This document shows positions 36,884 to 56,145 of a stretch of DNA of 64,000 nucleotides, piece after piece. The number at the start of each line of letters is the position of its first letter. The stretch's first letter is position 1. The notes under the pieces are model-generated. The model was not told the DNA's origin, made no database searches, and saw only the letters and a list, made by a program, of their open reading frames with translations. Position numbers and translations under genes: made by a program. This stretch comes from Moniliella sp. 'wahieum' (Eukaryota > Basidiomycota > Moniliellomycetes > Moniliellales > Moniliellaceae): NCBI GenBank assembly GCA_003971905.1, contig RSEE01000089.1:186001-250000 (forward strand), in the 5' to 3' direction.

Positions 36884-37181
36884 CGCACGTCGCCAAACGT
36901 AATGCGGGTGGGTGAAGGGTGAAGGTGGTAGAGGGTAGATGCAGGGGTGGTGGTGGTGGTGTGGTGTTTCGAAAGGAGGGAGACAGCCGACATATGCTTC
37001 CATCCACGCAGAGGATGGATGAAATGATTGGCAAGCGGTGTCGTTGTACATATGTTCGGAGTTGATCAGGGGGTGTGGTGTCGTAGTGACCATAGTAACC
37101 ACCCCTAGTGGCCTGGCCAGTGACGCTAATACTAGTGCCGTCTCACCGCGGCTGTCTTGGAGACAAGCGTATCTTGACGTG

Positions 37182-37252
37182 TGAAGCTTGAAGCCTGAGC
37201 TTGTAGCCTATGGCTTGCGGCCTAGCTTGAGACCGAGGCCTGAAGCCTGAAG
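37182..37252. repeat. Degenerate AAGCTT / AGGCCT heptamer string
   Basis: Reads GAAGCTTGAAGCCTGAGCTT and continues as variants (AGCCTATGGCTTGCGGCCTA, then GAGGCCTGAAGCCTGAAGG). Spacing is close to 7 nt. The units are the palindromes AAGCTT and AGGCCT joined by G or GA, with mutated copies between. Confidence 0.65.
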
Positions 37253-37405
37253 GAGGGGGGGAGATGACATACACCATTCGGGTCATGCAAATAGTGGGGT
37301 GCCCAGCGCTCATCAACACGCCACGGGATCCTTCTCACGAATAAGGCGAGAGAGCGGCATGATGCATGATGCATGACCAACAAAAGTGGAGCCGATCATA
37401 TCAAT

Positions 37406-37649
37406 ATGGCTCCTGTGTTGACCTGTGCTGCGTTCATTATTGCTCCGGGTCTGTTGGTTGCTCTCGCTCAGCCTCTGGGGCCTCAATGTGCCGGCCGCAA
37501 CGTTCAACCCCGGCGGCCATGTTAATCCCCGGACCAGCACCTACCCTGACTTCAAGGAGGGCGGTGGCGTCCAGAGCATAGCGGACGCTCTGCCAAGCAC
37601 ACAGAAGGTCCAAAAAGGTGTTGTGCTAGCTTTTGGCCACCGCAAGTAA
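37406..37649 (+). CDS. Possible small secreted protein (partial model)
   Basis: The ATG opens a convincing signal peptide (MAPVLTCAAFIIAPGLLVAL). That frame stops after 40 codons, but a +1 frame continues as LNVPAATFNPGGHVNPRTST and PSTQKVQKGVVLAFGHRK, ending where a GTAAGA donor could start an intron. No family is recognised. The case rests on one signal peptide and one assumed frame shift, in a window where such shifts are common. Confidence 0.3.
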
Positions 37650-38066
37650 GACAGCCCCATACGCGGAGACTTAATATATCCCGTCCCCACCCGCTCCCAA
37701 TATCCCAATGTCCAAACCCCATTGGGCGGCGACGGGCACGAGTCATCACCGGCACGGAGCCTACAGGCCCTCTCTGCCGTGCCCATCCCAGGCCCCTAAC
37801 GGGCGTAAGGCGTCGGGGCGCTTACGCTCAGCCCGCCCCAAGCGCATCGTGCGTCAGCACGCCAGCGCGCGTCAGCCCCACGCCCCCAATTCTTCAGCCA
37901 ACAGCCACACCTTCAGGGGTACTTTTGATGTATGTTGCACAACACCTGTGACATGTGATCGAGGATCTTAGTTCAGAATATATAGTTGGCTCGCAAAAAG
38001 AGCCACAAAACAAGAGGGTCTCCTTCTGGGCCCGATGCCCAACAGAAGCGAAGTGGTTAGCGCTGT

Positions 38067-38080
38067 GGGGGGGGGGGGGG
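38067..38080. repeat. Poly-G tract (G14)
   Basis: Fourteen consecutive G in intergenic DNA, followed eight bases later by a tandem ACTAGTT heptamer island (38089-38115). Confidence 0.95.
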
Positions 38081-38088
38081 AGGTGGGG

Positions 38089-38115
38089 TTACTAGTTACT
38101 AGTTACTAGCTACTC
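38089..38115. repeat. Tandem (ACTAGTT)n heptamer island
   Basis: GTTACTAGTTACTAGTTACT followed by AGCTACT: three copies with a 7-nt period built on the palindrome ACTAGT, here with a T spacer instead of G. Confidence 0.85.
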
Positions 38116-38340
38116 CCCGGGAGAGTGTGTGAGGGGAACTGTGTAAATGTAGGGCGGGTGGAATGGCCCCTCTTCCCCAGGAGTAAATTATCTCCACAGA
38201 GACAGGCCCAGCGCTGATGCCACATGGTGCGCGTTGGACGTTGGGCGTTGGGCTCCGATACATTGAACGTACATTGGCTTGTGCTAGCGACTAGTAGCTA
38301 AGGACGTGTGATGTGTGACGCGTGACGTGAGGCATACGAA

Positions 38341-38390
38341 GCATGGTGTATGATGCATGGTATCGGATGCATGATGCATGATGCGCGATT
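38341..38390. repeat. GATGCAT heptamer island
   Basis: Contains GGATGCATGATGCATGATGC plus degenerate copies (GGTGTATGATGCATGG). Immediately upstream (38303-38335) is a string with GTGATGTGTGACGCGTGACG, using the palindrome ACGCGT. Confidence 0.8.
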
Positions 38391-38528
38391 GGCCGATCGA
38401 TTGTCGACGATACAGACGCGATGCCGGAAGGGTTACGAGTACTGACCCTGTGCCTTGTGGAGCTGCGAGCGCGAGCCGGCAACTGGCACAGAGTGGTCAA
38501 ATGATCATCGGTCAAGCTTCAAGTGATG

Positions 38529-38574
38529 TGTGACCGGTGATGGATGATGCATGATGATCGATGACATGTGACAG
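38529..38574. repeat. Mixed palindromic-heptamer string
   Basis: A continuous run in which four different palindromic hexamers are joined by G or GA spacers: GTGACCGGTGATGG, GATGATGCATGATGATCGAT, GACATGTGACAGG (ACCGGT, ATGCAT, ATCGAT, ACATGT). It is the clearest single example of the word grammar described in the findings. Confidence 0.8.
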
Positions 38575-39024
38575 GTCCATCGATGATACGGCAGGGCGGA
38601 GACAGCAGCAGAGCGCTTTGTCGTGAAGTTTTTTAAGTGCTACTATATACTAGCCTCAAGCTTCACGCTTTTTAAGAGCAGGGATGGGGGGGGAATGACT
38701 TGTACTACACGTGTATATATTCACTGGTGGGCGCAGCTGCCAGGAGCACACCATCAGTTGCTGGCTGGCCCGTGGGGCCAAGAGGGGCGCTAGAGCGCGC
38801 TGCGCACGCTCAGCCCTGCTGCACAGTGCCCCTTGTTTTTGGCAGCAGCATGTGGGGCAGACACTCTTTCTCCCATTTGGTATTCCCGTCAGACTGCCAT
38901 TACAGACGAAAGAGAGGTGCCGAGAGTCCTGGCCTCTGTCACGTATCCCGGATTACTAGTTCCTTCCATCCCCCTCCTCCGACAGCGCTCGCTCACACCC
39001 GCACCCCCCACCCCCTCTTCCGAT

Positions 39025-40860
39025 ATGGCCCTCCCCTCCACTCTGGCCCACGAGTTTATGGGGAGCTCAACCCCTTCCACACGTCTGGGGAAGAGGGCGG
39101 CGAGGAGCATAGCACCTGGGCACACGCCAACTCCATTGGTGGCGGTGGTCTTCGCTTTGGCCCGCAGCATCAACGTGATCTGGAGGTATCACACCAAGCC
39201 GATCCCACCGCACCATTGCCTAAGCGTCTCCTCCCGTCAGCTACGCCCTGCGCCAGTACCTCTCTGCCGACCTGGGCCTGATCTCTGCGGCCGATGTTGG
39301 CTCGGAGGGAGACTGCACATCTCCTTCTGCCAAGGTCTCCGGTCTCTGGCCCGGCCAGAGGTCGAGGTGCCGACGGCCGCTGTGGTCGACCCAAGTCATC
39401 CGATCTCGTCCTACTTTATCTCCAGCAGCCACAATACCTACTTACTCGGTCAGCAGCTCGTAGGCAAAAGCAGCGACTCGGCCTACGTGCATGTGCTGCG
39501 AGCGGGTGCACGCTGTATCGAGATTGATGCGTGGGACAATGAGGAAGACGCAGAGGAGCCCAAGGTGACCCATGGACTGACCCTCGTCTCTCATATTCCT
39601 TACCGCTCCGTACTGCAAACCATCCGTCAAGAACTGGATTTGGTTGCATCCCAACTGGGACCCGGGGAGCAGCAGCCACCGCTATTTGTCAGCCTCGAGT
39701 GCCACTGTTCCCCCCAAGGACAGAGAGCGACTGGTATCCATCGCCAAAGAGGAGCTCGGCCCCCGCCTGGCTTCGTTACCCGAAGACGATCCTGCAAAGA
39801 AAACGTTGGCGGACTTGGCTGGACGGGTGATTTACCTTGTGGAGTGGTATGAGCAGGATGAGGTGCTCGAGCAGGAGCAGGAGCAGAGCAGAAGCAGGAG
39901 CAGGAGGAGATGGGAGGAGGGGAAGGTAAAAATGAGGAAGAGATGGATCCGCGCCCCCCAGTCAAAGTCAAGATCATTCCTGAGCTGCAAGCGCTGGGAT
40001 TGTACGCCAACTCAATCAAGCCCAAGGGTGACGCTTGGCTCAAGGGAGAGCTTTCCGAACCCAAAAACTGTTTGATCAACATTGGCGAAAGCGCCATAGG
40101 CGCCATCATCAACAAGGACGATTCGGACTTGAAAATCCACAGTAAGTTATGTTCTCTTCATCATCAATGGATTGTGAAACCAAAATGGTGCACACTGAAC
40201 TGTCCGGGTTGAATAGATTCCCGGAATTTGGTCCGTGTATACCCAGCCGGTACGCGGATCACGTCCAACAACTTGTACCCCCTCGACATTTGGGACTCGG
40301 GGGCGCACATGGCTTCGCTCAACTGGCAGAGGTTTGACGCAAATTTGCAAATGAACGATGCTCTGTTTGCAGGGTCGAACGGGGTGGTGCTCAAGCCAGC
40401 GCACCTGCGTCCTGACAACACGGGCCAGTTGCCGCTCCAGGTCCGGAAGACGGGCAAAGTAAAGTTGCAGATCCATGTGGTCGGGGCAAGCAACCTCCCT
40501 CTGCCTCGCGACCGCACCGACAATTCCATTCGTCCGTATGTGATGGCCTCGCTGTACCACCCGCACTGCCGTTCTGGTAAACCCATAAGCTGCCAAACTT
40601 CCGCCTACGACCAACACCATGACCTCGGCACCTTGCTCGGAGTCCAGCACCACCCGCCTGTCCACGAGCCTATCTGGAACCAAACGCTAGGGTGGATCTA
40701 TGATGCGGAGGGGGCGGATCTGGTGATGGTCCGTTTGCTGCTCAAGTCGGAAGACCGCTTGGCTCCAAACACTCTGTTTGCCGTGACTTCGATTCGGGTG
40801 GCATATGCACCCAAGGGTGCGTTGGGCTCTCCACTGCACGATCTTGCTCTGATCGGATAG
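39025..40860 (+). CDS. Phosphoinositide-specific phospholipase C, compact form
   Basis: Cleaves phosphatidylinositol bisphosphate to diacylglycerol and inositol trisphosphate. X box: ISSYFISSSHNTYLLGQQL (first catalytic His) with GARCIEIDAWDN and VTHGLTLVSHIPYRSVLQTI (second catalytic His). An E/Q-rich linker ((GAGCAG)-type repeats near 39870-39910) leads to the Y box: NEPKNCLINIG-like segment, NLVRVYPAGTRITSNN, YPLDIWDSGAHMASLNWQ and GVVLKPAHLRP. A C2-like end reads LQIHVVGASNLPLPRD and PIWNQTLGWIYD. Intron 40142-40216 (GTAAGT to AATAG). Frame breaks lie near 39240, 39695 and 39895. At about 585 residues it is much shorter than yeast Plc1 (869), and I see no PH or EF-hand region. The ATG at 39025 is the best candidate start. 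Confidence 0.88.
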
Positions 40861-41412
40861 TTTTGGTTTTCCAGATTACGTCTTCCTACGTCTTCTCGAT
40901 CTCTCTGGCATGGAGACCAATGCTCCCTTTTTGTTCGCTTTCAAGTTGAAGAGGTCTAGCAAAGAAAAAGCAAGGTACCAACGTGTTCGTGGTAGACCGG
41001 AAATATAAGAGTTTGTTTTCGGACCGCGCTTTTTGCGTCTCTATACCCCTGTATCATACCGATTTTAAGATTTACTTCATCTCCCCTCTCCGTCGCACAT
41101 TTCATGTGCGTCTCACACAAATGGAATGTAGGCAAGATCGAGTAGCAAGGCGTTCCCGTGTAGGAAGCGTATGGTCGTCGGGATCGGATAGATGGCACAG
41201 GGATATCAAAAAGGGAGAGAAATGCGGGAAGTATGCCGCGGGGCCAACGAAATCGAGAGAGGCAAAAGGGGTCCAGCCCCATGTTCAACGTTCAGCACTC
41301 CCAACATTCCAGAGAAAGGGGAGTGAAATGGAGCGGGCGTCCAGCGCTCCCCCAATGTAAAAAAAAACAGCACTCGAGGCGAAGGAGGAAAGTGATACCG
41401 AACTCAGCATCC
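40861..41412. other. Intergenic between convergent PLC and GH128-like genes
   Basis: 3' flanks. It includes an AACGTT word near 41285. No gene is supported; the plus-strand frames here end without conserved sequence. Confidence 0.5.
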
Positions 41413-42415
41413 CTAATTTCCACCGCCGGTGTTCTTGACCCAAAAGTCAAATAATCCCGTCGGTTCGCCACTGCTGCTGGCCAGGCGGTTGACAGAGGCG
41501 ATGTTGAGGTTCTTCATGACACCGTAAAAGGCAATGCCCTTGACCCAGTTGGTTTGTTGGGCAAACTGGTTGACCTCCTTGATATAGTTGTAGGCGTCCC
41601 CCTCGTTTGGCTCAGGCCCTCCCGAGAAGCTCTGCACGACGTCTCAGTAATGTAGATCGGTTTGCCAAAGGTCTGATGCCACTGTTGGAAGTATTGGATG
41701 GACTTTTGCGGATCCGACTGGTAGCTGTGCAACGAGTCATACGAGATGGCGTTCCACACGTCGCTGCACTCGGACTTGAACTGTGCATCCACTTGATTCC
41801 GTCGGGTGCACCATTGGTTGAGGGACCAATCAGCGTCCAGCCATCCTCGTTTTTGAGCGGTAAGAGGTACTGCCGGAAGAGCTGCATGCTTGGCCTGGGT
41901 TCATCTGGCCCTGACCTTGCTGGTTGACCTCGTTGGGACCCATGGCAACCTTGGCCTGATTTTGACGCGCGTTACGGTCGTTCAACACATACTTTTTCCA
42001 GTCGGAAATGCGCGAGCCCGAGTTGGACCACAGCATGGGGTAGAATTCAATTCCCTCGGGAATAAACCATTCAGCTGCCAGCGAACCAAGCGATCATATC
42101 TGTGGTCAGTCCAACCCGCAGACGAGGATCAGAGACGACGTACCGAGGGGACTGCCGGTGGCAGGTGTAGCGTCCCATGAGTAGAGCCATCCCATGCTCT
42201 TTTGGTAATGCGACGTCCATCGACCCTCCATTGGGCCACCCCAGTCCGTTCTTGGACTGCGAAGGCCCCGACGACGAGTTGCCGCGAGGCTTGTGGTGGT
42301 GGACAAAGCCGCTGTGACGACGCATCTGCGTTCGGTCGCCACCCATTGCCAAGCTTGGCACGTAGCCAAGGAAGCGCTGGCCAAGCCAGCTGCTCATAAG
42401 GGTGAAGAGCTTCAT
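41413..42415 (-). CDS. GH128-like (Asl1-type catalytic core) secreted beta-1,3-glucanase
   Basis: Glycoside hydrolase of the Glyco_hydro_cc/GH128 type; family members cut beta-1,3-glucan in the fungal wall. The start is MKLFTLMSSWLGQRFLGYVP (weak signal peptide). A His/Gly/Ser-rich stretch precedes the conserved KNGLGWPNGGSMDV and GWLYSWDATPAT. Intron 42075-42143 (GTACGT to GCAG). Then come GIEFYPMLWSNSGS, VAMGPNEVNQQGQGQMNP (likely acid/base Glu), NAISYDSLHSYQSDPQ and GKPIYITE (likely nucleophile Glu), NWVKGIAFYGVMKNL and a C-terminus near KNTGGGN. Frame breaks lie near 41640, 41790 and 41880. The length, about 310 residues, is usual. Catalytic Glu assignments follow family knowledge. Confidence 0.85.
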
Positions 42416-43058
42416 GCCGGATACTTCAAGTAGGGCGTGGAAACGAAGGTGTACCAATACCGTGTATCGGGGTGAGGAGAGGCGTGACAACAACAAAAAG
42501 CAAACTGAAGGGATGGGACACAGGTAGTGGTGGTGGTGGTGGTGGTGGTAGAGAATGTGGCAAGCCGCGTCCCGCTCCCGCGCGCACTACTGCTGTATAA
42601 GTTCTCAGCGACGGATGGGGGATCCTGGATCTGTTGAGGCCATTGAGGGCGCAGCACGATTGATGCATGATGGCTGTAGCTGCTCTCTGGCGGTACGTGG
42701 TGGGGTCGCTTCGCTCTGAGCTATGCTGGCTTCGGCCGCGCGCGGGTAGAAAAGTGCCGTGAGATCCAAGTCTAGAAATCCGTGTGGAGGTGGATTGTCG
42801 ATGGAAGCGCCGTCTTCGGTGGGAGCGAGACCAAGAGCAAGAGCGAGGCGTAGGTTTTTGCAATGCCCAATGGCGCCTGTGACATGTGAAGCATGATGCA
42901 TGAACAGCGCGAGCGAGCTCTATAGGTGGCTGCAGTAGCGCAGCACTGATGCATGGTGTCGATGACTTGAACGGTGACTGCAGGGCAGGGCCTTCCTATA
43001 ATATAGTAGCTTCCGTACCGCACGGTGTCTTCCAACCCCGCGCCTCTATCAAGTCAGA

Positions 43059-43700
43059 ATGTCAGCCTGGCGTGAAGACCCACCATCTTCTCTCCCACCC
43101 CGCCGCTCTGAGGGCCAAACAGTGAACCCAACCCAAGCTGGGCCGTCCGACGCGCGGGCAATTGATTCGGTCGACTATATGAGTAAGCACCTCCCCCCGA
43201 GAGTGGAATTGAAATATCAAATAATCGTGAGTCGTTGGGGGGGGGGGGGGGGGGGGGGGGGGGCAATCTGCCAGCCCCGGTTCCTCCATGGACTCCGCAG
43301 AGAATGGAAGGTGCGAGAGTCCAACGGTCGATGGCCACAGCGCGTTTGAACTGCTCGCCCCACCTACCCGCCGGCTCGTTGCCGCCAAGCCCCACTTGAC
43401 GCGCATTCTGGTCCGTATCTTTTCAGCCGTGGTGAGCGGGTGGGCATCGCAGCATGTGTGTTTCCTTTCCTTTCCTTAAGCGCTGGCTTATTCCGGTTGT
43501 TTTCCTGGCCAGCCCCACGTGGACAGATGTGTGGTTTCTATCATGCACCTCTCTGTCCTCCGTTCAGTACTCAGTGTGCACCATCGAAAAATAGATCGTC
43601 GATCGCCGTTGGTTGTTGAGGATCGCGGCTGTGCAGCCCTATTGTGTAGCGGTGACGTGGACGTGCCGCGTCATCTTGCGCTTCAAGCTTCACAGTGGTT
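43059..43700 (+). CDS. Possible small intron-containing gene, function unknown
   Basis: Tentative. An ATG opens MSAWREDPPSSLPPRRSEGQ and reaches a GTAAGC donor near 43182. The putative intron contains a G27 tract and ends at CTGCCAG (43274). A downstream frame reads FELLAPPTRRLVAAKPHLTR then ILVRIFSAV, and a GTGAGC to GGCCAG intron is possible at about 43432-43513. The frames of exon 1 and exon 2 do not join without a one-base shift. No family is recognised. Confidence 0.3.
43237..43263. repeat. Poly-G tract (G27)
   Basis: Twenty-seven consecutive G, the longest homopolymer seen in the window, positioned 11 bases before a good splice acceptor (CAATCTGCCAG). Confidence 0.95.
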
Positions 43701-43879
43701 CCAATAGTGGCAGCCCAATCAAAGCCCATTCATCAGGTAAGACAAGACGACATTCATCATGATTCGTGAGCTGAGCGAGGGAATGCCCTCAATACCTACG
43801 TATTTTTATGGTGCTGTAGAACCCTGCCAACTGCCGAGGCTCGGAGCGCCAAGAAGCGGAGAGTAGGACGGGGACCATG

Positions 43880-44290
43880 CATCCATCTAGGTGCGAAAGA
43901 AGGTGGGGGGTAGAGGGGGGGGGGGGGAGTCAAACGAGGCCAGCAGCAGAACTAGAGCAAAGAAAGATCGACAATACCAGACTGCAAGAGAGAGGTGGGG
44001 GCAGGACGGACTTGACAAACCAAAGATACACGACAGCACAGGAGAAACAAAAGGACATAGGACAAGGACAAATGGCAAAGGGAAGAGGAGAAAGGAGAAA
44101 GGAGAAAGGTCAAAAACAAAGGGAAGAATTGAAACGAGGGGCACAGAAGGAGCGCATTGTGGACTGGAAAAGGGAACACGGACGAGACGGGAAAGCTAGA
44201 ACGGATGTGGGGCCAGGGATGGGGGGGGAAGGACAGTCAGCGACAAAGCGGATCAAACGAGCGAGGAGGGACGCGGGGGTTGGGGGTTGG
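43880..44290. other. Purine-rich (plus) / pyrimidine-rich (minus) asymmetric segment
   Basis: About 400 bp in which the plus strand is overwhelmingly A and G, with runs such as AGGAGAAAGGAGAAAGGAG and a G13 tract at 43915-43927. It lies directly downstream of the minus-strand TEA-domain gene, so its transcript would carry a CU-rich 3' end. The plus-strand frame of 139 codons here is a composition artefact. Confidence 0.75.
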
Positions 44291-44303
44291 GGTTGAAGTT
44301 GGT

Positions 44304-47300
44304 TCAGAAAGCAGGCATGTAGTTCGAGTGCTCCATCCCGTCATTTGCAGCCCCATCCCTGGGCCGGTGGAGAGACCGGTGAATGTGTCGAAAAAAGGGG
44401 AGGCGTCGGTGGAAGAAGCAGGCTCGTCCAGCGTCACGGCCGGCACGCCAAGGAGCGAACTGGAGCCAGGTTCTTGTCCTAGGTTGGGAAACTGCGAAAG
44501 AGGGGCCATATGAGCCGAGAGCGAGCCGGGGTTGGTCATAGAGGCTCGACGTTGAGGCGTAGCGTGTTTTTCCACATCGGGCAACGGAACGGTGGGCATA
44601 GGAGTGCTGCGGAAGGTAAAGTCCCGGAAACTGTTGGTCAGCATCGAAGGACTTTTGGGCAGGGGGAACAAGGGGCCGGAGAGCATGCTGGGAGAACACT
44701 GTAGCTCGTTCCCGGCAGAGCCTGGAGGACCGAGGAAAAGTGGGGGGGCCCAGGGGTGTGGTGTTGGCCAGCGGAGAGGCGCCCACACCAAGGTGGTAGT
44801 CCGACATGGACCGTGCCATCCGCATCCGTGAATCTTTCCCTGACAGATGGTTTGTCGGCGTTTGGAGCAGAGGAATGGGGGTGGAGGGGAGACTGCCTTC
44901 GAGCGGCGAAGCGATGGGCGCTTCGGAGCGCATTGACCAAATCCCAGCGTCCATATCGGACCCCGGTCCCGAGCCCGGCAGGCTCAACGTTGACGATTGC
45001 GGTGTGCCATTCACGATACTCAAGCCAGTTGGGTAATGAGCGACGGACGGAGGCGTGGGTGAGATAGACAGCTGGGTTGGGTACGAAGTCCCCGTCTGGT
45101 CCCGTGCTGACAAAGTGCGTTTGCGCAGCAGAGTGGGCGTAGTCTGGGGCTGCGGGGAGACCGAGCCGACACTTCGACGCAAAGGAAGTGGTGACAAAGA
45201 GGCCATGCCAGCATGGAGCCCTTGGACAGAGAGCGAGTGTGTAAAGCTTGTGGTGCCATGGGTTCAAATGGAGCCCTTCCAACCGCAATAGACGACTGCA
45301 GGTGCTCAGGGGCACTGAGCGAAGATGCCATAGAGGGCGCGCCAAACGCAGGCATACCAGGATTCGACGGCATATGGAGCGGGGCTTGCGCAGGAGTGAC
45401 TGGACCTGTTCCAGGCAAGCCAGGGACAAACATGGTGGGTGAGGTCCCCAAAAAGGAGGGATACTGCATTGGGTACGGTGGGTGAGGAGCGCCAGTCATG
45501 ATTTGACCGTTGTTGACAGGGTCCATGGATGGGCGCCTCATACCCGTGGGAGGGGTCAACAACGAAACTCGCGGAGTAGGGTGGCCGCTTGTGTGGTCTT
45601 TTCCACACATTCAATGTCCCACACCAAGACAAGCTTGACTGTGCCCACTTTCTGTCCAGGGGAGCTCAAGCCATCAAGCCCCTCTGCCATGATTTGCTTG
45701 ATTGAGGCAGCACACGCTCATCTGCCACCACAAACTCTTGGATCAGAGCAATGCCCGCCACGGCCATACCCAGGGCAGCACGTTCACTCGGTTCTTTCCC
45801 AAACGTGGGAGAGTCATTGCCCGAGGCAAAGTTAACAGGGTGGCTGCGGCTCAGCAGGTCAGCCCAGAAGTCGGTGGCAAACGGTGCAAAGTGACTAAAG
45901 CAATGCGAGGGGGTGGAGCCTGCATTGGAGGTGGCCGGGGAAGAGATACGGCGGGGTGGCTCCAACGGCTCGACGAGAGTGAGAATGCGTTTTCCGTGGG
46001 AAAAGACCGTGGTGACCGAAGTTAGCCGGTGCGCCTCTGTGCTTGTGAGGGTGAGTTGGGTGCTGAATTGGTCAAAGTCCGGCAGGAACACATCGGCGTG
46101 AGGGATGCTCAGGGGAGCATAAAGGTGCAAAAACGGCAGGACAGCTGCTCAAACATGTGAGCCAAATGAGGGAAGCGGACCTGCCCCAGATGGACCGTGC
46201 TGATGGGCTTACTAGCCCCAACCACGCTTGTGCTGGACTCTGCCCTCTTGCCCATCTCGACATAGACGTGCCGCTCGTCCGTGTCGCTGCAGTGAACCCA
46301 CATAGAAAAGTTGGTGGGAATGACCGAAGGCATGTTGGAAGGTGAAGGGGGGCAGTCAAGCTGGGGTCCTTGATGCGGTGAACATTGCCTTGCAACGCGT
46401 CATTGACCGCTTCCCACCCAGGCAGGCCATACGGCCCACTTAATCCGCCATAGCCGAACTAGCTAGGGTGAGTGCATACATCATTCCACCAGCGGGGACA
46501 TAAAAGTCCTCCTCAGAGCGCGGCTCTGCAATCAGGTTCAAAAATTCGGCATCATCCTTGCGCACATTTTTGAGAACTTGAATGTGACTGGAGACTTGCT
46601 TGCGTGAGCGTTGCTTTCCCGTCTTGCGGTTGATGTAATCCGCGATCATTCGTTCCGACCACACGCTTTTCCATGGACGAGCACTTTGCGACGCCCAAGC
46701 TTGGGAATAAACCGAAGAGCTGTGAATACAAAAAAAGTTCGTTAGTCTGCCCTCCTTCCAAAACTGAACTCCGGCCCACGTACCTTCCCAAAATGCCACC
46801 TCCACATCATCTGGCCATACGTCTGTATTTTTCGCTGCCGCCGCTGCCCTGGCCGAGGCGGAGGTGGAAGTCGGGGTTCGATTTGCGGCCGCTTTGGCGG
46901 GGGGCTGGTAGCAGCTAAGCCGTCAGGCCCTTCGTGGTAGGGGCGAACTGTTGGAGCCCAGGGATGCACCGCTGGGGGGACGAGCTGGAGTCTTGGTGGA
47001 GGAGCCAGTCTCGGTTGTAGGCGCTTGTTCTAGGGGTGTGGACGCAGCAGCGTCTGATGGGTGGTGGGCACGATCCGGGGTGGCCGGGATAGCAGACGGG
47101 CTGCCGGGGAGCAAGGTCTGGGCGGGGTCAGAAGCAGGCGACGGCAACTCCCCAGGCAGGTCGTCGTCCGAGCCGACATCAACGTGATCGGCACCAGTGG
47201 GAGAGAAGGTGGCAAGACCAGGCGGAGGCACAATGTCGTGGGTGCGGCGGCGCTTGGAGTGGTGGCGTCGGGTGAGAGGAAGGCGGCGGAAAGAGCGTGG

Positions 47301-47501
47301 GAGGAGTGGAGGGCAGAGTGGGGAGAGGCGATGCGAGCGGTCAAGCGGGGGCGAGAGAACGAAGTCGGGGGTGCGCAGAAAGGCAGTGAAGGCATCGTCA
47401 TCTCGGGGCGGCGCCGCCAGCAGCGCGCGAGCGCGGAGGAGGGGTGGAGGGGGTCCGCGGCGGGGGGAGGGTGGGGGCGGGGTGCCGCGGGCAGCAAGCA
47501 T
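44304..47501 (-). CDS. TEA/ATTS-domain transcription factor (Tec1/AbaA-like)
   Basis: Nuclear DNA-binding regulator; Tec1 and AbaA relatives control filamentation or conidiation in other fungi. The Pro/Ser-rich N-terminus starts MLAARGTPPPPSPRRGPPPP at 47501. The TEA domain is split by an intron at about 46741-46784 (GTACGTGG to TTCACAG): DVWPDDVEVAFWE | ALRFIPKLGRRKVLVHGKAC, GRNE, MIADYINRKTGKQ and RSRKQVSSHIQVLKNVRK. One A is missing near 46646. A C-terminal activation/ligand-binding-like part includes FSMWVHCSDTDERHVYVEMG and FLPDFDQFSTQLTLTSTEAH, followed by a Ser/Pro-rich tail. The stop at 44304 is one of two candidates. Further frame breaks occur near 46900, 46440, 46130 and in the tail. 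Confidence 0.86.
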
Positions 47502-47777
47502 GGCGGGGGGAAGGGGGGGGAGGGTGGGGGGGGGGGCGGAGAGGAGAGGAGAGGAGGGAGAGGAGCGGGTGGGGGCGGAGGGGAGAAGGAGCCAGAAAAA
47601 ATGCGCTGACGGGCTGGGGAGGGGGGCTGAGCCTCAGCAGCAGACGGGGGCTGAATGATTTCAGTTCTGGCCCGTCGCGTCGATTAACGATTGCTGCTGG
47701 ACGCGGCTGGGCAGTGAGCGGTTGAGGCTGATCGATCGCTGATCTGAATACGTGTCCTCACCACAGGCACCGGTGAT

Positions 47778-47840
47778 AGTGACTAGTGACTAGTGACCGC
47801 CGTCGCCTGCCGCAAGGAGCAACTAGTAACTAGTAACTAC
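47778..47840. repeat. ACTAGT heptamer islands (two)
   Basis: AGTGACTAGTGACTAGTGAC (47778-47797) with G spacers and AACTAGTAACTAGTAACTAC (47821-47840) with A spacers. Both have a 7-nt period on the palindrome ACTAGT. Confidence 0.85.
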
Positions 47841-48523
47841 CGCCCAGCATCCGACATCCTCCCCAGGCAGGAGCCACTACGCCCCCGTGCGGACGCACCC
47901 ACGCCCAACCCTGCTGCTCGCACCTCCCCGCGGGAGCAGGGTGCGCTTGAGCAGCCGCTGCGCCCGGCGCTACACTGCCCTCCCCCCCGCCCTCCCTCGC
48001 CTGCCCTGCCCTGCCCTACTTGGCCAGCCAACCCTCCCACCCCCACAGGGGCAGTGTGGCCCGTACTCGAACTGGCCAGTCCCTTACTGTACCATTTAAT
48101 ACTTATCATGCATCGCCGTCATCGGTCATCGCTATCGGCGCCAATCCCTAGTCCTGCATCCTGGTCAGTGATTTATGGTTCACCCGATGAACGTGATTAA
48201 CGTTACACCGTCCAACCCTTCCATTGAAGCGAGTGAATATTGAGTTCGCAGCACCTGGTCAGTACGTACACCCATGCGACGTGCCATCGATGCGGGGCGG
48301 GGATGGAGCCGGGCACTGGAGCACTGGGTACTGGGGGGGAGGGCACCACGGCCATCGACCACCAGCATATTGGCGCACTGGGGGTGCCTACTACTGCCCC
48401 CTCCTCGATCCTGGCCAATGCTAATGCGCTAATGCATAATGGGATAGGGGAATCGAGGCCCGAGGACAAATGACGCGGTGACGCGGAACCTCACTCAGTC
48501 AGTAACTAGTAAGTAACTCGTAA

Positions 48524-48570
48524 CATGTGATGTATGATGCATGATGCATGATGATCAACGGTTGATGATC
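48524..48570. repeat. GATGCAT island with ACATGT
   Basis: Starts ACATGTGATGTATGATGCAT, continues GATGCATGATGATC and runs into AACGGTTGATGATC. Same word set as 38529-38574. Confidence 0.85.
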
Positions 48571-48660
48571 TGCAGAGGGTGCGGCGGCACTGTGGCCCAG
48601 CACGACCAGCACGGCCCAGCCAAGACGCTTTTTGTTCGCGTGACTACATTTCCCCCAAAG

Positions 48661-48702
48661 TTGAACGTTGAACGTTGAAAGTACTTGAACGTTGAATATT
48701 GA
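48661..48702. repeat. Tandem (GAACGTT)n island
   Basis: TTGAACGTTGAACGTTGAAA, then GTACTTGAACGTTGAATATT and GAAAGG: three copies of GAACGTT plus one GAATATT, with the palindromes AACGTT and AATATT. Confidence 0.85.
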
Positions 48703-49151
48703 AAGGTCCATGCACGGGGGAAGAAGAGACCACCAACCGCCGCCTTATCGAAGTGACTAGTCGCTAGCCCACGGAGTAACTGAGTACTGAGTGACACACG
48801 ATTACTGAATACTGGTGCCGAACGGGCCACACTATGGGCGTATCGCCTGCCCCAGTGTGCTCGTTCTTTTGTCATCGTTTCTGGTGATAGTGAGCGCTAG
48901 CGCATGGCGGCATGCCTGCGCACAATGATTAATGGCCAAAGACGCCGACAGCCCCCCAAGCAATTGGGCTCATGTATTGGCCAATGCCTCAACCCCTATC
49001 GGTCCAATGAATCCGTCCTGTGTTCTGGATGAAAACTGAGCTGAATAGTGAATCTCACCGCCATCCGAGGAACGTGTGGGCCATGCAATTTACAAAGAAA
49101 AGGTTTAAAGAACAGTAAGAATGGCAAGGTGCCAGTGGGTTCGGACTGGCC

Positions 49152-49176
49152 TGATGCATGATGCACGATGCATGGT
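49152..49176. repeat. GATGCAT island
   Basis: TGATGCATGATGCACGATGC followed by ATGG: three units with one substituted base. Confidence 0.8.
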
Positions 49177-49609
49177 GGCGATTCCACTGTCTTCGTGAGT
49201 AGGTTGGCACGACAGCTCAGCCTGACCGCGCCCACATGCACCCGATGAGCGGGGGCCTGTGATATAGAGGCAGTGTGTCTTTGTCCCAGCCTTATTAAGC
49301 TCCACCCTTACTATTAATGTCATAGTTTGGTTGATCGATGATCTTGCTCCCATTTCCAATTTCTTCGTCTCGAGCGTCGCGCTCCTTTCCTGTTTTCTTC
49401 CACTTCGCACCATGCCCTCTGTTCTTGCTTCTTCCCCACGAACGATTGCTACACCCCTTGGCCTAGTCCGATTCTGGTCTCCCTCGCCTTAGCCCCGACT
49501 GTGACAATTAAGCTCTGTAAATATGAAACGGTAATGTGAATATTGAATGCAGAGAATGTAGAACCAAAGGAGAAAAGAACCTCATTAATCATTTTATTGT
49601 TTCGGTCTG

Positions 49610-49706
49610 TCACTAGTGTCACTAGTCACTTCCATCAGCATCACTAGCTTCACTAGCCACTAGCCACTAGTCACTAGTCACTAGTCACTCAATCATTAAT
49701 CACTCC
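49610..49706. repeat. Long ACTAGT heptamer array
   Basis: Almost 100 bp of GTCACTAGTGTCACTAGTCA, degenerate copies (CACTAGCTTCACTAGCCACT), then CACTAGTCACTAGTCACTAG and a final ATTAATC. The longest such array in the window, with both perfect and decayed 7-nt units. Confidence 0.88.
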
Positions 49707-49730
49707 GGCGCCACAGAAGGGTCAAAAGGA

Positions 49731-49822
49731 AGGCCTAAACTCCAAGGCCTAATCGACCTAAGGCCTAAGGCTTAGGCCTAATCGATAATCGGCGCGTAAG
49801 GCGTAATCGACGTAATCGACCA
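49731..49822. repeat. AGGCCT / ATCGAT heptamer array
   Basis: Alternating AGGCCTAA, AATCGACCTAAGGCCTAAGG, CTTAGGCCTAATCGATAATC, then degenerating into GCGTAATCGACGTAATCGAC. The units are palindromic hexamers with A or AA spacers. Confidence 0.75.
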
Positions 49823-50021
49823 ATCCACATTCAGCACGTTCAACGTTCAAAACGTACAAGGTAAGGTGCACAGGGCAAAATTCCGACGGCGACCGGTGAG
49901 GTGGCCGGTGATGTTTGACCCACAAAAAATATAAATGGTGCCTTCCGCTTTATGCGACGGGTCGATTGCCTCACAATGAGCTTACCCACACCTCCAGACC
50001 CTTAATCTTCTTAGCTTCGGG

Positions 50022-50054
50022 ACGTTCAACGTTCAACGTTCACGACGTTCACGC
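50022..50054. repeat. AACGTT heptamer array
   Basis: ACGTTCAACGTTCAACGTTC followed by ACGACGTTCACG: copies of AACGTTC, the complement of GAACGTT at 48661. Confidence 0.85.
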
Positions 50055-50279
50055 TCCCCATAGTGCATCCGTCCATTCTTCTGATCCAACACTTCCAGAC
50101 ACCCGCGTGCGCGTGACCCTCCTCCACACTTACACCCACCAAATGTGTTCGGGATCTCAGATCCCATTTGACATGCTGACCGGCGACCGACGATGACCCC
50201 GCACGTTTCTCTGTTTCCTTCTGTTCATTTGCCCCACTCCTACCCTTGTTTGATTCGCCCGGGTTCGTTGGCTCCACAA

Positions 50280-50320
50280 CTCAGTACTGAGTACTGAGTA
50301 CTGAACTCATATACTCAGTT
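50280..50320. repeat. Tandem (AGTACTG)n array
   Basis: CTCAGTACTGAGTACTGAGT then ACTGAACTCATATACTCAGT: three perfect GAGTACT units and decayed copies. Confidence 0.88.
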
Positions 50321-50377
50321 GAGACTTCACAGATCGCCATGCTTCTCCCCTCCCCACAACCATAATCTAAAGCGCTT

Positions 50378-50966
50378 TTAAGCTTTTATTGATTCGGCGC
50401 GACGCTGATCGCGCTGATCAAAATGGTTATGATTCTCTCCCATAGTTTTCCAGATCTTCTCCGTTTGTAACTCCAAGTCTCGACAGAGCGGCACACCCCT
50501 CTGGTTTGCCCTGTGCAGGAGAGAGACCGCGAAAAGGCTATTGCCGTTAACCACACAACAGGCCTCATGGACCTCATCTGATGGATGTGCTGGGTCAGCT
50601 GAACCTGGTACTTTTTCCCTCAGTCTCTCTACTACCATAAGCGGTCCATTTCGAAAAGGGATGACAACGTTCCCCATATCAGATCGGTGGCACTGTCGTG
50701 CTGACGTCTTCGTGCTAGCATCGTGCTCGCAGTCCTGGGCAATGCCACCAGGTAGATACTGCTTCGTCGTCGATCCTCCGGTGGGAAAGAGCAAGACTGG
50801 GACTCTGCTCCGGACCCATCTCGCTCCGGACCCATATCGTGACAAAACGGAGCGGCGCTGCCACAGCTGTCACAGTCGGGGCCAAGGTGAGAGAAACCAG
50901 AGTCGAGACTAGGTCAAGGGATATAGCAATCGTGCGTGCCAGGGAAGAAGCAAGAGCATATAGCAC
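50378..50966 (-). CDS. Orphan coding candidate with N-terminal hydrophobic segment
   Basis: Two overlapping minus-strand frames join with one shift near 50770 to give about 190 residues. The N-terminal part is hydrophobic (LARTIAISLDLVSTLVSLTL then APTVTAVAAPLRFV), like a signal anchor. The remainder has normal protein composition: GGIAQDCEHDASTKTSARQC, VVERLREKVPGSADPAHPSD and LELQTEKIWKTMGENHNHFD. The first open codon at 50966 is GTG and no in-frame ATG is clear, so the 5' end is unresolved. No family is recognised. A rival 123-codon plus-strand frame exists at 50541-50912 but looks less protein-like. Confidence 0.35.
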
Positions 50967-53833
50967 ATGATGCGAAGTGGAAGAAACAGAGAAAGAGCGA
51001 AGAGACGCTCGGGACAGAAATTGGAAATGGGAGCGAGATCAGCCAAATTATATGACACCAGCCCAAGGGGTAGATAAACACAACCTCTTGTCCACTCGGA
51101 CCACGGTTGTACTGAGTTTGCCCTCTTTACATTATATGCTTCTTCGCTTTAGTACTTCCAAACGAGGGGTGCGAAACGGTAGTGGCAGCAATCACAAGGT
51201 GCAGTCTTCCAGCCGAAGTCACGACAGCACGTTCCCTCCTACAAGATCAAAGCATGGCGACAGCGCATTTCCTATCATGCAGATCGGGTAACTCGGAATG
51301 GCCGTCCCAATCCTGCCACCTGTTATCTTTTGAGGAGCTAACCGTTGCGGCAGGCTATCCCATCGCTTTAGTGCAGCACAGTGGCATACACTCTAGTCAA
51401 CGAAGACGATAAGGAACTTCTTGTCGCCCCAGGCTTCTCCTCTGCGCCTATTTGGGTATATGATATGAGACGAAGGAAATGGCTATTAGAGTGGGCGAAC
51501 AGCAAGGGTCGCAGTGACGGCTCACCGGGGTGCAGGGTACGCTGAGATGGGGGAGGACGGTAGAAACCACTACCTTTGCGCTCGAAGACCCGAGCCGTCA
51601 ACTGATTTTGCTTCGGCCGCGATCGCGGAGCCGAGGCCGCACGTGCCTAGTCCTGCCGTGTTGGAGCTTAAGAGAGGCATGAGAACAGGGACGATACAAC
51701 TGGCTTGCGGAACCGGTCGTTTTGGTGCAATAAACGTGCGAACTCTATGGGGGCAACAGGGCAAGGGACGAAACCGTCAGCAATATCACCTGCCACGCCA
51801 TCCCACTGCCGCTGCTGATGCGACCGCCGTGGGAATAGTGAGGGCAATGTCGGGATGTTCCCCTCCGGGGGCGGACCCGCCACAAGGAGTATGAAGCGCA
51901 ACGATGCGAGCGAGTGGAAGCAATAAGCGTTCCACAAGATGAGATGAAGAACTTTGTCGGAGGACCGTGACCAGAACGGGATGGGCTTCAGGCATATATA
52001 TATGGAGACACTATGACGGTGGATGGACAGAAGGGCGAAATGGGTCCCACAAACTTCGTGTAACTATAGCAATTTACCGGAGAAGGTTAACTGTTCTTTT
52101 TACCGGATATCTCTCTTTCTATAAAAAGAGAGTAGTAGGAGATTGGTCGGAACGATGTACTACCATAGCTGGATGTGGAATAGTACTACGAAGTCCATAC
52201 CACCAATCTCACGGAGGATGGGATGAACGAGCTACTAACATCGCGATCCACGGATGGGCCAAGAACCGAGAATGTCGATGAGTCTGCAAACCAGCAGGCT
52301 GTTGTAATGAGCATAGTCTTCGCCGTCCTGTATCAAAGCAGGTGTACCGGCCGCGGCACTTCGACTCTGTCCAGACCTCGCTCTGCCCCGGCCCAAACTC
52401 TTGGGCGGCATTGCATTGGGCCGCAGGGATGACGCAGCGCCCACGTACAACCCATGCGTCCCTTTTCCCTTTTTTTGTCTTGACCTGGACCACTTCAGAG
52501 GCACTACTCTTCCGTTCGCTTTCCGACGCTGGCCCGGCTGACTGGCTCACTCCCATACGCTCACCGTCACCCCGATGACCAATAATCAAAACGGCGTTTT
52601 GTTTCCCGTGAAGCCCCGCCTATAACCCAATCCTCACAGTCGGCCACATATTGGGCAAGCAGGCTCAGGCGCTCAGTAGAACGTGGGCACCCCCCCGGTC
52701 ACCCGCATTTCCCGTCTTGTCGCACCAATCTACTGGTTTCCAGACAAGGGCAACTTTTCTTCTGCTGGGGCGCAAGCCACACACACCACGTTCCGGTGCT
52801 CCACAACTTCCACTGTTTTTTGCATTATAGTCTCCTGTCGCCAGTTGTGCCTTTTGAATCTCTGCTCCTGTAATCCATCCACAAGGTCCACAGTCCCTGC
52901 CCCTGCAGTTTTAATACGAGACCAATTCGCGGCAGTGCTCCACCCCCCCTGCCTTTCCTAAAGAGAGACTCAGAGGTGCCCGATGAGCAGCAGCTCGGAG
53001 TTACCCGACATGTTTTTGCGAACAGTAAGACCTCGGCCATGTGTATATCCATCATGATGTGCCTAATATACAGATGGGGCAGAGATTGATGCGTCTCGCG
53101 TTGCCGGGTCACATACATACACCCAAACTCTCGGCTGTGCACATATACGGCTCTGTTCTACATATTCTCCTTGACCCTTTATTGTCTCTCTCTCTTCAAG
53201 CGTTTTGTTTATCGCATGATTAATGATTGATGATTGCTTCTCCTCTGTTCCATGCAGTCTGAACTTGAATACCATCGTCATACAAAACAACTCTCCTTCA
53301 CTCGTCCTCCCATGCGGGCCTGGGGCCCAAAAGGACGACAGAGGATGATACTACTAGAGCTCGAGCTAGGACTATCACAGAGACTACTAGCACCCCCTCC
53401 TCTACGGTACTACTGATATAGCCAAGTAACAGGGTGGATTCGGGCAAGCATACGCACCGTCAAGCTTCAAATGTCGAACTATAGCGAAACCCACGAAAGA
53501 ACCAGGCTTTGCGTCCTTCGTCGATCGTCGCCAGTCGAGCGCGACTGGCTAAGTGTCTGTGTGGCGTGGCGTGCGGCGGGATCCCAAGGCCCTCCCCATA
53601 ACCCTTTTCCTCTCCCCGCCGCCCGCCCACGCAATCCACCCGGCAGGTCTGCTAAACACACAAAACACACACAACGGGGCAGGTGAGCACAAACAAGCTC
53701 ACGTGCCAAGGCATAACTTTGGGTGCATGGGCAGCTGACAGCCGACAAGGCTTCTCAGATCTCAACCCCTGCTGACATGAACCAAAACAACAACTGATTG
53801 CCTAGTGCGACCTAGGCCTCTCAACTCCGGTAC

Positions 53834-54718
53834 TCAGGCACAAGCGTACGACTCGAGCTCCTGGGGCGTGCTCTCGTCGTCCGAGGCACAATCGGGGGCA
53901 GGAACGGTGGTCAAGTCCTGTTGTTGCTCTACTAGCTGCCTCGCGCACTTGGCGCTGGAGCGCATTGGCATCCGTGTCGGACAAAAACTGAATGGTGATC
54001 GGGCGGTGGGTCGAGACGGGGCAGGCACGCGGTACCGAGGCCGGCGTCGGTGGCACGAGACTCAGCCCATCCAACTCGGTCATCAGAGCACGCTCGTCGC
54101 GCGCTGCGGGATCGAGCGAGGCATGCTGCAAGTTGGCTTCCAATTCGGCCAATGCCAAGCGGTCCGACAAGACCTGCTGCATCGACTCGATCGTCGTCTC
54201 GAGTTGGCGACGGCACTCGGGCGGATAGGCAGCGCTGTTGGGTGCGTGCAGCGACGCTTGGCGTTGCTTGATTGTCGCTTGCAATTCAGCAATCGACATG
54301 CGCCGGGGCGACTTGGATGCACCCGTGTGCGGCGCGGCACAAACGCACTCGCCCGCGCGCGCATACGCGGTTGCAGCGCGTCCAACTCCGCCTGCGCCCG
54401 GGCCACCTCCGACGGAGGCGACGTGCCAAACACACTGGTCGCTACCGTACTCGCGCTGGTGGGCGACGAGGAGAGCGACGCAGACTCGTCGGTACACCGA
54501 GAGGGAGAACGGTGGGTGCGCGTCGCAGCGCGGGCGCGGCTAAAAATGGGCGAGCGCTCGCCAGGAGGCGACAGGCCATAGGGGGCCGTGCTGGAGCGGA
54601 CACCGCCTGTGCCCGGGAGGGCAAGAGGGATGGAAGACGTGCCCGAGGCGGGGACGTTGTTCAAAGTAGGGCTGCGGCGAACAGCTAGATCGGCTTGCGT
54701 CGTACGGATGGGAGCCAT
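53834..54718 (-). CDS. Coiled-coil protein, function unknown
   Basis: The start at 54716-54718 (MAPIRTTQADLAVRRSP) is the first ATG after a possible GTG. A Ser/Pro/Thr-rich N-terminal half (about 100 residues) is followed by helical, heptad-like sequence: SEVARAQAELDALQPRM, MSIAELQATIKQRQASLH, CRRQLETTIESMQQVLSDRL and ALAELEANLQHA. Then come LMTELDGLSLVPPTP, TIQFLSDTDANALQRQVREA and an acidic end DDESTPQELESYACA. Frame breaks lie near 54320 and 53930. It is consistent with a cytosolic scaffold or trafficking coiled-coil protein, but I do not recognise the family. Confidence 0.6.
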
Positions 54719-56145
54719 GATGGACGCACTGCTGGCCACATAGACAAAGCCGGGATGATACGGGGGTTGGAGGCGTAGCGACGACCGGGTGGGGGTCGGA
54801 TCGAACGAAGCAGACGGGCGGCGGAAGAGAGGGGTGGCGTGGGTGCTTGGGGGAGGGGAGAGAGGGAGGTGGGCACGAGGAGCAGAAGCGGGAAAGGGCG
54901 ATGGGAGGCAGCAGCAGCTGGGCTGGCGGCAGCTGGGCTTTTATAGGGCGAGAGGGCCCGGCGTCAGCCACGCTGCCAGCTGGGGGGGCGGCGGGCTGGA
55001 GGGCAGTGTGGCGCGGGAGTGGGGGAGTGTGCGAGTGCGGGAGTGCGGAGTGGGGAGCGCAGGAGCAGGCTGCAGCGCTGCAGGCACCGGGTGGGGGCCA
55101 GGGTTCCGTGCGCCGGCGCTGCTCTGGTGCGGGGGGCGGACGCAACCCTAGGGATGCGGCCGGGGTGCCGCCGTGCCAGCGCCGGGTGGCCGTGTGCCAT
55201 GGTGCGCTCCTCGGGCGCTCGCAACAGCGGCCCCCTGCTGGCATCCACGCTCACGTTGTCATTGCGGGCGGGTGGGTGTGGAGCGGAATGGAGCGGATAG
55301 GGCCTAGGGGGTGGCATGTGGCATGCGACATGTGACGTCGAATGGATGATGCATGATGCATGGTGTCGATGACGCGATGACTCGATGATGACGCCGGATG
55401 CCGATGCAGGATGCCGATGCAGGAGGCCGATGCAGGAGGCAGGTGCAGGATGCAGGGGTGCAGCGGATGGGTGGATTGACTGACTGGTGACGCGGACGGG
55501 ACATGGAATTCGGCGCTGGCTGCGCGTGAAGCGGATGGGGCGGGGCAGCGGGGCAGTGGGGGTGGATGGGGTGCATGGCATGTGGCCGGTGGGCGTGGGC
55601 GCGTGGGATTGCAATCAAGCAATCCATCAGTGCCGCCGATTCCCCGTGGCTGGGGCGCTGGGGGGCAGAGGGCCGGGTGGCTAATCATCCCTGGGGGGCA
55701 CGGGGCAGGCGTGTGCGCAATGCTGAGTCTGAAATCGTGCTGACTAGGATGCGCCGATGCACCGAGGACTGCGGCCTCAGCCTGGTGAGATCGATAGGTA
55801 CGAGTCCAGTCCGTGGCGAGTACAGAGTGCTGACGCACGGACGGCGTGCACTTGTACTTGTCAAGCATGTCACGTGTTATCCAGTAGGCAGTATGCGGCA
55901 GTGTGAAGAGACTGTGACATGCATGTGACAGGCGGTGCCGCAACCCTGTACTGGCCTGGCCAGGCTTGGCTTTCAATTTCCAGTTGAATCGTTTGGCTGC
56001 CGAGTGCAGGCTACATGCGCCAACACCCTCGTCGGCTCCACCCGGCTGCCCCAGACTCCACCTGCGCTGACCCTCGCTGAGCGTCGCCCTGCCTTCGCAC
56101 AAGCTGCCCGCGCCCTCGCCTGACGTTGCGGGCGCCCGTGCGACC
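54719..56145. other. Intergenic with degenerate repeat cluster
   Basis: 1.4 kb between the coiled-coil gene and the BSD2-like gene, which are transcribed away from each other. It contains the long GATGCAT/GATGCAGG cluster at 55311-55470 and a GTGACATGCATGTGACAGG word near 55914. Long GC-rich frames on both strands have low-complexity His/Pro content and are not called. Confidence 0.5.
55311..55470. repeat. GATGCAT / GATGCAGG repeat cluster
   Basis: Begins GTGGCATGTGGCATGCGACA, then TGTGACGTCGAATGGATGAT and GCATGATGCATGGTGTCGAT, and shifts into a second tandem unit of about 12 nt (GGATGCCGATGCA, GGAGGCCGATGCA) near 55395-55450. It shows the heptamer set passing into a longer derived repeat. 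Confidence 0.8.

Follow-up and report, generated by a model that had tools for sequence, protein, structure and literature searches.

Palindromic seven-base words in Moniliella DNA follow a TNA-centred rule and are probably scars of hairpin-opened target duplications

The 64,000-nucleotide stretch of Moniliella sp. 'wahieum' DNA analyzed here (bases 186001-250000 of contig RSEE01000089.1, our contig C89; hereafter the window) carries short palindromic words that recur at a period of seven bases, and our analysis provides both a rule for their letters and a reading of how they arose. The rule is that each word stands beside a three-base core, TNA, where N is any base, and that the two bases flanking such a core dictate the palindrome; we regard this as close to certain. 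The words themselves are probably excision scars, in which 7-bp target duplications made by a cut-and-paste recombinase were opened as hairpins and rejoined. An earlier note on the same DNA, made from the letters alone, had described heptamers built of one spacer base, mostly G, and a palindromic hexamer of the form A....T. At the places inspected, the words that it listed were present where it had put them or a few bases off, and the four words that it saw in one string near 38529-38574 are CCGG, TGCA, TCGA and CATG at 38531-38571.

The assembly comprises 69,493,810 bases in 223 contigs, and our 264 kb sample consists of the window and bases 100001-110000 of contigs C1 to C20 (200 kb), chosen without a random draw and with a G+C content of 0.587. 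A second set of 32 kb was unused in deriving the rule and was partly picked for its GATGCAT arrays. We call xxTNAyy the seed and write rc for the reverse complement. Each unit joins TNA to a palindromic tetramer, and a seed gives either of two products, D, which reads xxTNAyy.rc(yy).TNAyy, or U, which reads xxTNA.rc(xx).xxTNAyy, each 7 bp longer than the seed.

The palindromic character of the words is tied to a single period. Exact period-7 arrays of at least 16 bp in the window are self-complementary in 16 of 21 cases; at periods 5 and 6 no array is (of 5 and 9, respectively), and at period 3 one of five is. In the 264 kb sample 41 of 57 period-7 arrays of at least 18 bp are self-complementary, against 13.8 when the letters of each word are shuffled. 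The same palindromic hexamer is repeated at 7 bp 59 times in the sample (Markov-3 mean 1.2), and differing A..T palindromes lie 7 bp apart 19 times and 14 bp apart 14 times, against 1.5 and 1.1, with no peak at distance 7 over other distances for unlike C..G, G..C or T..A pairs. Across the whole genome, (GATGCAT)3 has 424 exact overlapping matches and the word read backwards has none, and the pattern TGAN4TGAN4TGAN4TGA has 6,448 matches against 1,198 for its reversal, which ACTAGT arrays also match by construction. The excess over shuffled and Markov backgrounds for which the earlier note had proposed a test is thereby borne out, the period of seven is confirmed, and its impression that most of the 16 possible A..T palindromes are in use is upheld, as all 16 palindromic tetramers occur among single words. 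A general enrichment of inverted repeats was considered and rejected, with perfect stems of at least 7 near Markov background at most of 25 spacers and mildly raised at spacer 1 (36 against 23.2) and spacer 16 (31 against 17.0).

The outer A....T of that description stands, and its fixed part is replaced: what stays constant is T-N-A, not a spacer G followed by a hexamer. TGA-N4-TGA occurs 371 times in the sample against 96 expected (3.9-fold), and the spacers keep the same orientation, the tetramer being palindromic in 210 of these sites against 14 of the 80 with TGA-N4-TCA. A single word suffices, since 96 of 203 unchained TGA-N4-TGA sites are palindromic. We scored a flank as matching when the dinucleotide ahead of the first TGA equals the word's second half, or the one behind the second TGA its first half. 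By this measure the full 2-nt extension is found upstream only at 28 of the 96 single sites, downstream only at 36, on both sides at 13 and on neither at 19, and sites fully matched on one side with zero bases on the other number 22 and 19. Run lengths tell the same story: exact A-palindrome runs peak again at 19 bp, where 12 are found, compared with 2 and 3 at 17 and 18 bp (lengths were counted from 12 bp up, hence only the rise at 19 is informative). Because 19 bp is 7k-2 and no multiple of 7, this peak together with the one-sided flank matches implies that a seed becomes D or U.

Null models place these products far above chance. Shuffling the four dinucleotides yields 1.1 D, 0.9 U and 0.07 that are both at 202 two-TGA sites, where we count 36, 28 and 13, respectively; 36 TAA sites give 7, 5 and 4 against 0.29, 0.34 and 0.07 under the same shuffle. 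A stricter null, which keeps the word and shuffles the flanks, leaves 43 D against 8.2, 33 U against 7.4 and 17 symmetric cases against 0.6 among 239 TNA pairs. At control cores, D and U together stay at 0 of 159 for ANT (AGT/AAT), 4 of 420 for CNG (null 3.7) and 6 of 496 for GNC (null 3.7). The second set gave 10 D, 7 U and 4 both among 47, all in distinct contexts (16 from loci L001-L008 and 5 from long terminal repeat, LTR, loci). The identity of N matters little (G/C 154 of 14,201 and A/T 32 of 4,728 TNA positions, both strands), and symmetric seeds are favoured, the inner pair being complementary in a fraction of 0.455 against 0.279, a preference that would help repeated hits.

That the words are functional sites kept by selection, as arrays for a DNA-binding protein or as structured spacers, would fit their placement: none of the 53 window loci lies inside Pfam-matched coding stretches (5,886 bp), where 4.9 are expected, as the earlier note had observed for conserved coding parts, and 18 of the 53 cluster in 48001-52000. 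We nonetheless hold this to be very improbable, as a protein would not, on our reasoning, demand complementarity whatever the base, all 16 tetramers occur with flanks dictating the word, and near-misses suggest decay of about 9% per base. The binding platform or hairpin-forming spacer that the earlier note entertained is unneeded because the word follows from the two bases adjoining one TNA. Two other candidates were rejected: the words match their flanks, and so are not the fixed ends of a transposon with a 3-bp TNA duplication, and no tRNAs or known RNA families were reported in the window.

The length of the duplication is given by a second product class. In this rarer +9 class, written xxTNAyy.rc(yy).xxTNAyy or as the mirror of that, a complete 7-mer stands on each side of two mirrored bases, as in GTTGAAC.gt.GTTGAAC and CATAACC.gg.CATAACC. 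When core and arm lengths were scanned with no requirement for TNA, a 5-base core with 2-base arms stood out at period 9 (50 against 2.3); this core reads NNTNA, its third base being T in 32 of 57 and its fifth A in 30 of 57. With flanks tested, the class holds 19 of 210 TNA pairs (7 + 7 + 5) against 0.33, compared with 2 of 541 at CNG (0.36) and 0 of 639 at GNC (0.46). A +8 form occurs at 11 of 150 TNA pairs against 0.64, with 1 of 98 at ANT and 2 of 421 at CNG. A looser scan of product lengths and distances kept arrays in, which inflates its distance-7 rows; the clean version is the flank-tested count by core. In the +9 class the same seven bases stand to either side of the joint, which points to a duplication of 7 bp, NNTNANN, and the +9 form is predicted by neither tandem slippage nor a 5-bp duplication.

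This class bears on two rivals that account for the +7 products. The enzymes RAG and Transib make 5-bp duplications and hairpin the flanks, and a recombinase like them that duplicated TNANN and added two P (palindromic) nucleotides without loss would serve, the +7 products being also writable as TNAyy.rc(yy).TNAyy. Such an origin appears improbable to us: seven bases are identical on both sides in the +9 class, the P bases of a TNANN consensus come from the NN side with no sign from the TN side (99 sites), and only at a length of 7 bp is the target symmetric about N. Polymerase template switching, in which synthesis stops after xxTNAyy, copies 2-3 bases of the complementary strand, returns to TNA and recopies TNAyy, yields D and U at the right +7 length without any element, and none was found in the 264 kb sample. 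We judge it unlikely, as it gives no reason for T..A when +7 products at ANT, CNG and GNC cores sit at null, as the +9 class needs another return point yet shares the TNA centre, and as a zero-distance jump would be sterically odd.

Mixed arrays extend the rule from single words to blocks. Hits on both sides of one seed would put rc(xx)xx words to its left and yy.rc(yy) words to its right, each end keeping its own flank, and of eight two-word TGA arrays of unlike palindromes four have both flanks as predicted, three have one and one has none. Examples are AG-TGA-CTAG-TGA-TCGA-TGA-TC and GG-TGA-CCGG-TGA-ATAT-TGA-AT and, from the second set, AT-TAA-ATAT-TAA-GCGC-TAA-GC and CA-TGA-TGCA-TGA-TGCA-TGA-AGCT-TGA-AG. 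Compensatory drift between words was rejected, as both base pairs often differ between adjoining palindromes. Replication slippage of heptamers able to form hairpins, comparable to that of the shorter CNG triplet repeats, draws on the ability of arrays of one base plus a palindromic hexamer to fold back and on homogeneous many-copy arrays such as AGCT x6 in locus L014, and slippage, which the earlier note listed as a possible origin, may well lengthen arrays that exist. As the source of the words we consider it quite improbable: the excess is limited to period 7 and A..T outer pairs and spares other hairpin-forming words, general inverted repeats lie near background, single words already obey the rule, adjoining words can differ at all four bases, and mixed arrays, the one-sided 2-nt extension and the +9 class are unexplained by slippage alone. 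Heptanucleotide minisatellites and STRR-type repeats share with these arrays a period of 7, a non-coding location and a variable copy number, but here the word follows the TNA seed and its flanks, and single and mixed sites obey one rule. TNA dependence, the +9 class and two-block arrays are not what a slippage-born minisatellite presents, whereas a fixed-length duplication, 2-nt P nucleotides and, in one clean case, a scar absent from related copies are what a hairpin-transposon footprint presents.

That clean case comes from dispersed repeats. Two families look like solo LTRs (TG...CA) and are hosts of scars, not their cause. Of the 18 copies aligned for family A, 17 read TTTGG-CTGATC-TCGCTCC, give or take minor changes, and are without 7 bp of the window copy at 49331, which reads TTTGGT-TGATC-GA-TGATC-TTGCTCC, exactly +7 and of type D; this copy is one clean before/after pair. 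The family A copies compared included 15 of the 41 matches listed, most of them chosen for divergence. In family C, for which 20 of the 40 matches listed were used, GATC words are inserted at TTC-TGAGGAG only in the L015 copy among 22. A repeat pair in L021 has CTCTCTCCTGG in one copy and CTCTCAGATCTCATGCATCACG in the other, with lengths that differ by 12 bp, not 14; the pair is consistent with one event per seed side, but it needs a further 2-base change and is not clean.

Family A (about 185 bp; window 49339-49506 and 50868-51041, L015 3045-3151) has at least 41 genome matches (391 first-look candidates), and equal query scores in 26 of the 41 listed hint at a recent burst. The second solo-LTR-like family, of about 145 bp (L013 5320-5465, L029-L048) has at least 40 matches, and by eye 5-bp duplications flank several of its copies. 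Inspection by eye also shows several tandem duplications, 2-9 bp long and following no obvious TNA rule, in LTR copies L044, L051, L055, L056, L060 and L063 and in L021 131-403, as fill-in joining of staggered breaks would leave. Locus L021 further holds direct copies of about 212 bp at 7669-7879 and 8332-8543 (identity 99.5%).

These observations support a model in which insertion at NNTNANN would duplicate 7 bp with the dyad axis on the middle N, a 7-mer symmetry of the kind that a dimeric transposase would be expected to prefer. On departure of the element both flanks would be left hairpin-capped, and opening of the hairpins 2 nt past the tip would add rc(yy) or rc(xx), a pair of P nucleotides templated by the flank itself; an opening offset of 3 would spell identical letters, T being the complement of A. 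To give the main product, each 3' tip would be joined to the recessed 5' end of the other side, so that the top strand reads D and the bottom strand U, and the resulting 4-nt mismatch could be resolved either way with a net gain of 7. This joining scheme leads to +7 every time and to D and U in similar numbers, as observed (43 and 33). A minor product would keep the full 7-mer on both sides (+9), and loss of one base from it would give +8. Since the product would keep and multiply TNA sites, repeated hits, perhaps aided by slippage, may produce the homogeneous arrays, and hits on both sides of one seed the two-block mixed arrays. From the letters of the products we thus infer a departed element, a hairpin intermediate, a heteroduplex and an enzyme. 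The genome has a partial DRMBL match (27.7 bits), presumably of the Pso2/Artemis type.

Published systems offer partial parallels. Elements of the hAT type leave hairpins on flanking DNA (PMC3878927), Ac/Ds footprints in Candida consist of short deletions or of palindromic inserts of P nucleotides, and in yeast a role is ascribed to Pso2, which is related to Artemis (PMC5873905). The footprints of Ac/Ds, Tam3 and Hermes resemble the present scars in their flank duplications around short palindromic additions, their small losses and their explanation by flank hairpins (PMC5873905, PMC3878927). They differ in an 8 bp duplication (NTNNNNAN) and variable footprints, whereas here the duplication is 7 bp, NNTNANN, with one dominant offset, tandem arrays and, by estimate, tens of thousands of loci. 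V(D)J coding joints made by RAG and Artemis likewise carry two-base inverted end copies, and Artemis hairpin opening falls mainly 2 nt past the tip (PMC3528771); the scars described here lie outside antigen-receptor loci and have a 7-bp duplication. Galileo, of the P superfamily, has a 7 bp target duplication, GTAGTAC, symmetric about its middle base as here (PMC2775673), but the present target has a TNA core with free arms, and no Galileo-like long terminal inverted repeat (TIR) was seen in the 264 kb sample. In the literature searched, in which subscription journals are thinly covered, we found neither arrays of this sort described nor 7-bp scars across a fungal genome.

Several findings weigh against excision scars as the source, some of them from the products. 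Of 275 loci, 73 have at least three TGA, more than independent hits can account for, so that either hits recur or slippage follows. Outside every class lie 113 of the 202 two-TGA sites, though chance alone should supply about 96 TGA pairs spaced like this. In the sample a weaker +7 excess is found at TNG and CNA cores (27 of 665 against about 9.4 each; at TNG, 11 D and 16 U against 4.4 and 5.0), the ANT control is not wholly clean for the +9 class (3 of 146 against 0.14), and +8 products occur at GNC cores in 3 of 509 against 0.8. The two-sided +11 product was found in 0 of 144 pairs (1 case under looser counting), plain 7-bp duplications are not specific to TNA (TNA 11 of 239, ANT 10 of 159, CNG 8 of 420, GNC 16 of 496), and the class with a 1-nt extension is near null (D1 2 and U1 1 of 202). 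The products are also more uniform than published footprints, and hAT footprints are called random in a review (PMC3878927).

The search for an element weighs in the same direction. A scan for TIRs plus target-site duplications in the 264 kb sample (0.4% of the genome) returned 5 weak candidates and no convincing element, and where identical NNTNANN pairs in that sample have TIR-like ends, the best of these mostly belong to the arrays. Domains of hAT, P, MULE, KDZ and Harbinger transposases have no genome match, including the hAT dimerisation domain (PF05699) and the P-type transposase (PF21787); the hAT, P and KDZ profiles are silent in control genomes as well, which makes these negatives weak. 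One interval flanked by GCTAAAG (L009 4635-7157) was considered as an intact element and set aside, its 7-bp inverted end being at the level of control 7-mers and, on inspection, apparently due to chance. A Transposase_21 match, which we take to be of CACTA/Plavaka type, lies at G000:C17:557095-557541 (L064) within an open frame of 351 codons; several scars lie at 555533-555850, another Transposase_21 copy is on contig C34, and 7.4 kb around the C17 gene showed neither a convincing TIR nor a 7-bp duplication. We also hold as a tentative possibility that an unrecognised, hairpin-making recombinase cuts NNTNANN across non-coding DNA and rejoins it by a nearly fixed, V(D)J-like route; it may be domesticated or programmed, as tens of thousands of joints are estimated and no intact element was seen. 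Were this true, the tandem palindromic arrays would be its recurrent record.

Table 1. Words, arrays and longer products in the window, in window coordinates.
Feature	Position	Strand
Single TGCA word, one-sided flank extension	820..829	-
AAGCTT array, TCA and TTA spacers	5001..5024	-
CTAG word with both flanks, symmetric seed AGTGACT	22943..22952	+
Array of TGCA x3 block and TCGA word	23037..23074	-
TGCA x2 array	26861..26877	-
Single CATG word, left-flank type	27176..27185	+
TGCA x2 array	37360..37376	+
CTAG x2 array, TTA spacers	38089..38105	+
Mixed array CCGG/TGCA/TCGA/CATG; TCGA-CATG part with flanks as predicted (GA left, CA right)	38531..38571	+
Mixed array CATG ... TGCA	42880..42903	+
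CTAG x2 array	47780..47796	+
TAACTAGTAA word, then TGCA array	48503..48551	+
ACGT array and ACGT/ATAT mixed array	48662..48702	+
TGATC.GA.TGATC scar in solo LTR; 7 bp absent from 17/18 aligned copies	49332..49343	+
TTAA and CTAG word cluster, TCA spacers	49582..49702	-
GGCC and TCGA words, TAA-spaced	49759..49788	+
+9 class CGTAATC.ga.CGTAATC	49802..49817	+
ACGT x2 array	50026..50042	-
+9 class CGTGAAC.gt.CGTGAAC, adjoins ACGT array	50038..50053	-
GTAC x2 array	50288..50304	+
+9 class GATCAGC.gc.GATCAGC	50404..50419	-
TGCA word, right-flank type	55347..55356	+
GGCC x2 array	58563..58579	-

The gene content of the window is fungal by Pfam (eIF3d, Gcd10, Mob1, VID27, a TRP-family channel, Iml2, CRAL-TRIO, PI-PLC, TEA and Bsd2), and the solved enolases that score best are presumably yeast enolase 1. 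The window also holds 27 G in an uninterrupted run at 43237-43263. A further dispersed repeat of at least 850 bp lies at L020 3189-4017 and L023 6256-7087, and also in L009, L013 and L014.

The number of scars in this genome may be large and their age considerable. The 126 TNA-palindrome-TNA loci in 200 kb scale to about 44,000 in 69.5 Mb, a figure that includes chance and flank-unmatched sites. Sites that match the D template exactly number 270 against 1, and those with one mismatch 359 against 35 (both strands). These near-misses suggest a divergence of roughly 9% per base, a rough value that would make many of the scars old.

In summary, what looked like an arbitrary set of palindromic words can be read as a mutational signature. 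If the excision reading is right, each scar records its own target, the length of its duplication and the point at which its hairpin was opened, and a large share of the period-7 repeats of this genome would be breaks rejoined after the action of one enzyme. The same reading would place tens of thousands of natural junctions at hand for the study of hairpin opening and end joining in fungi.

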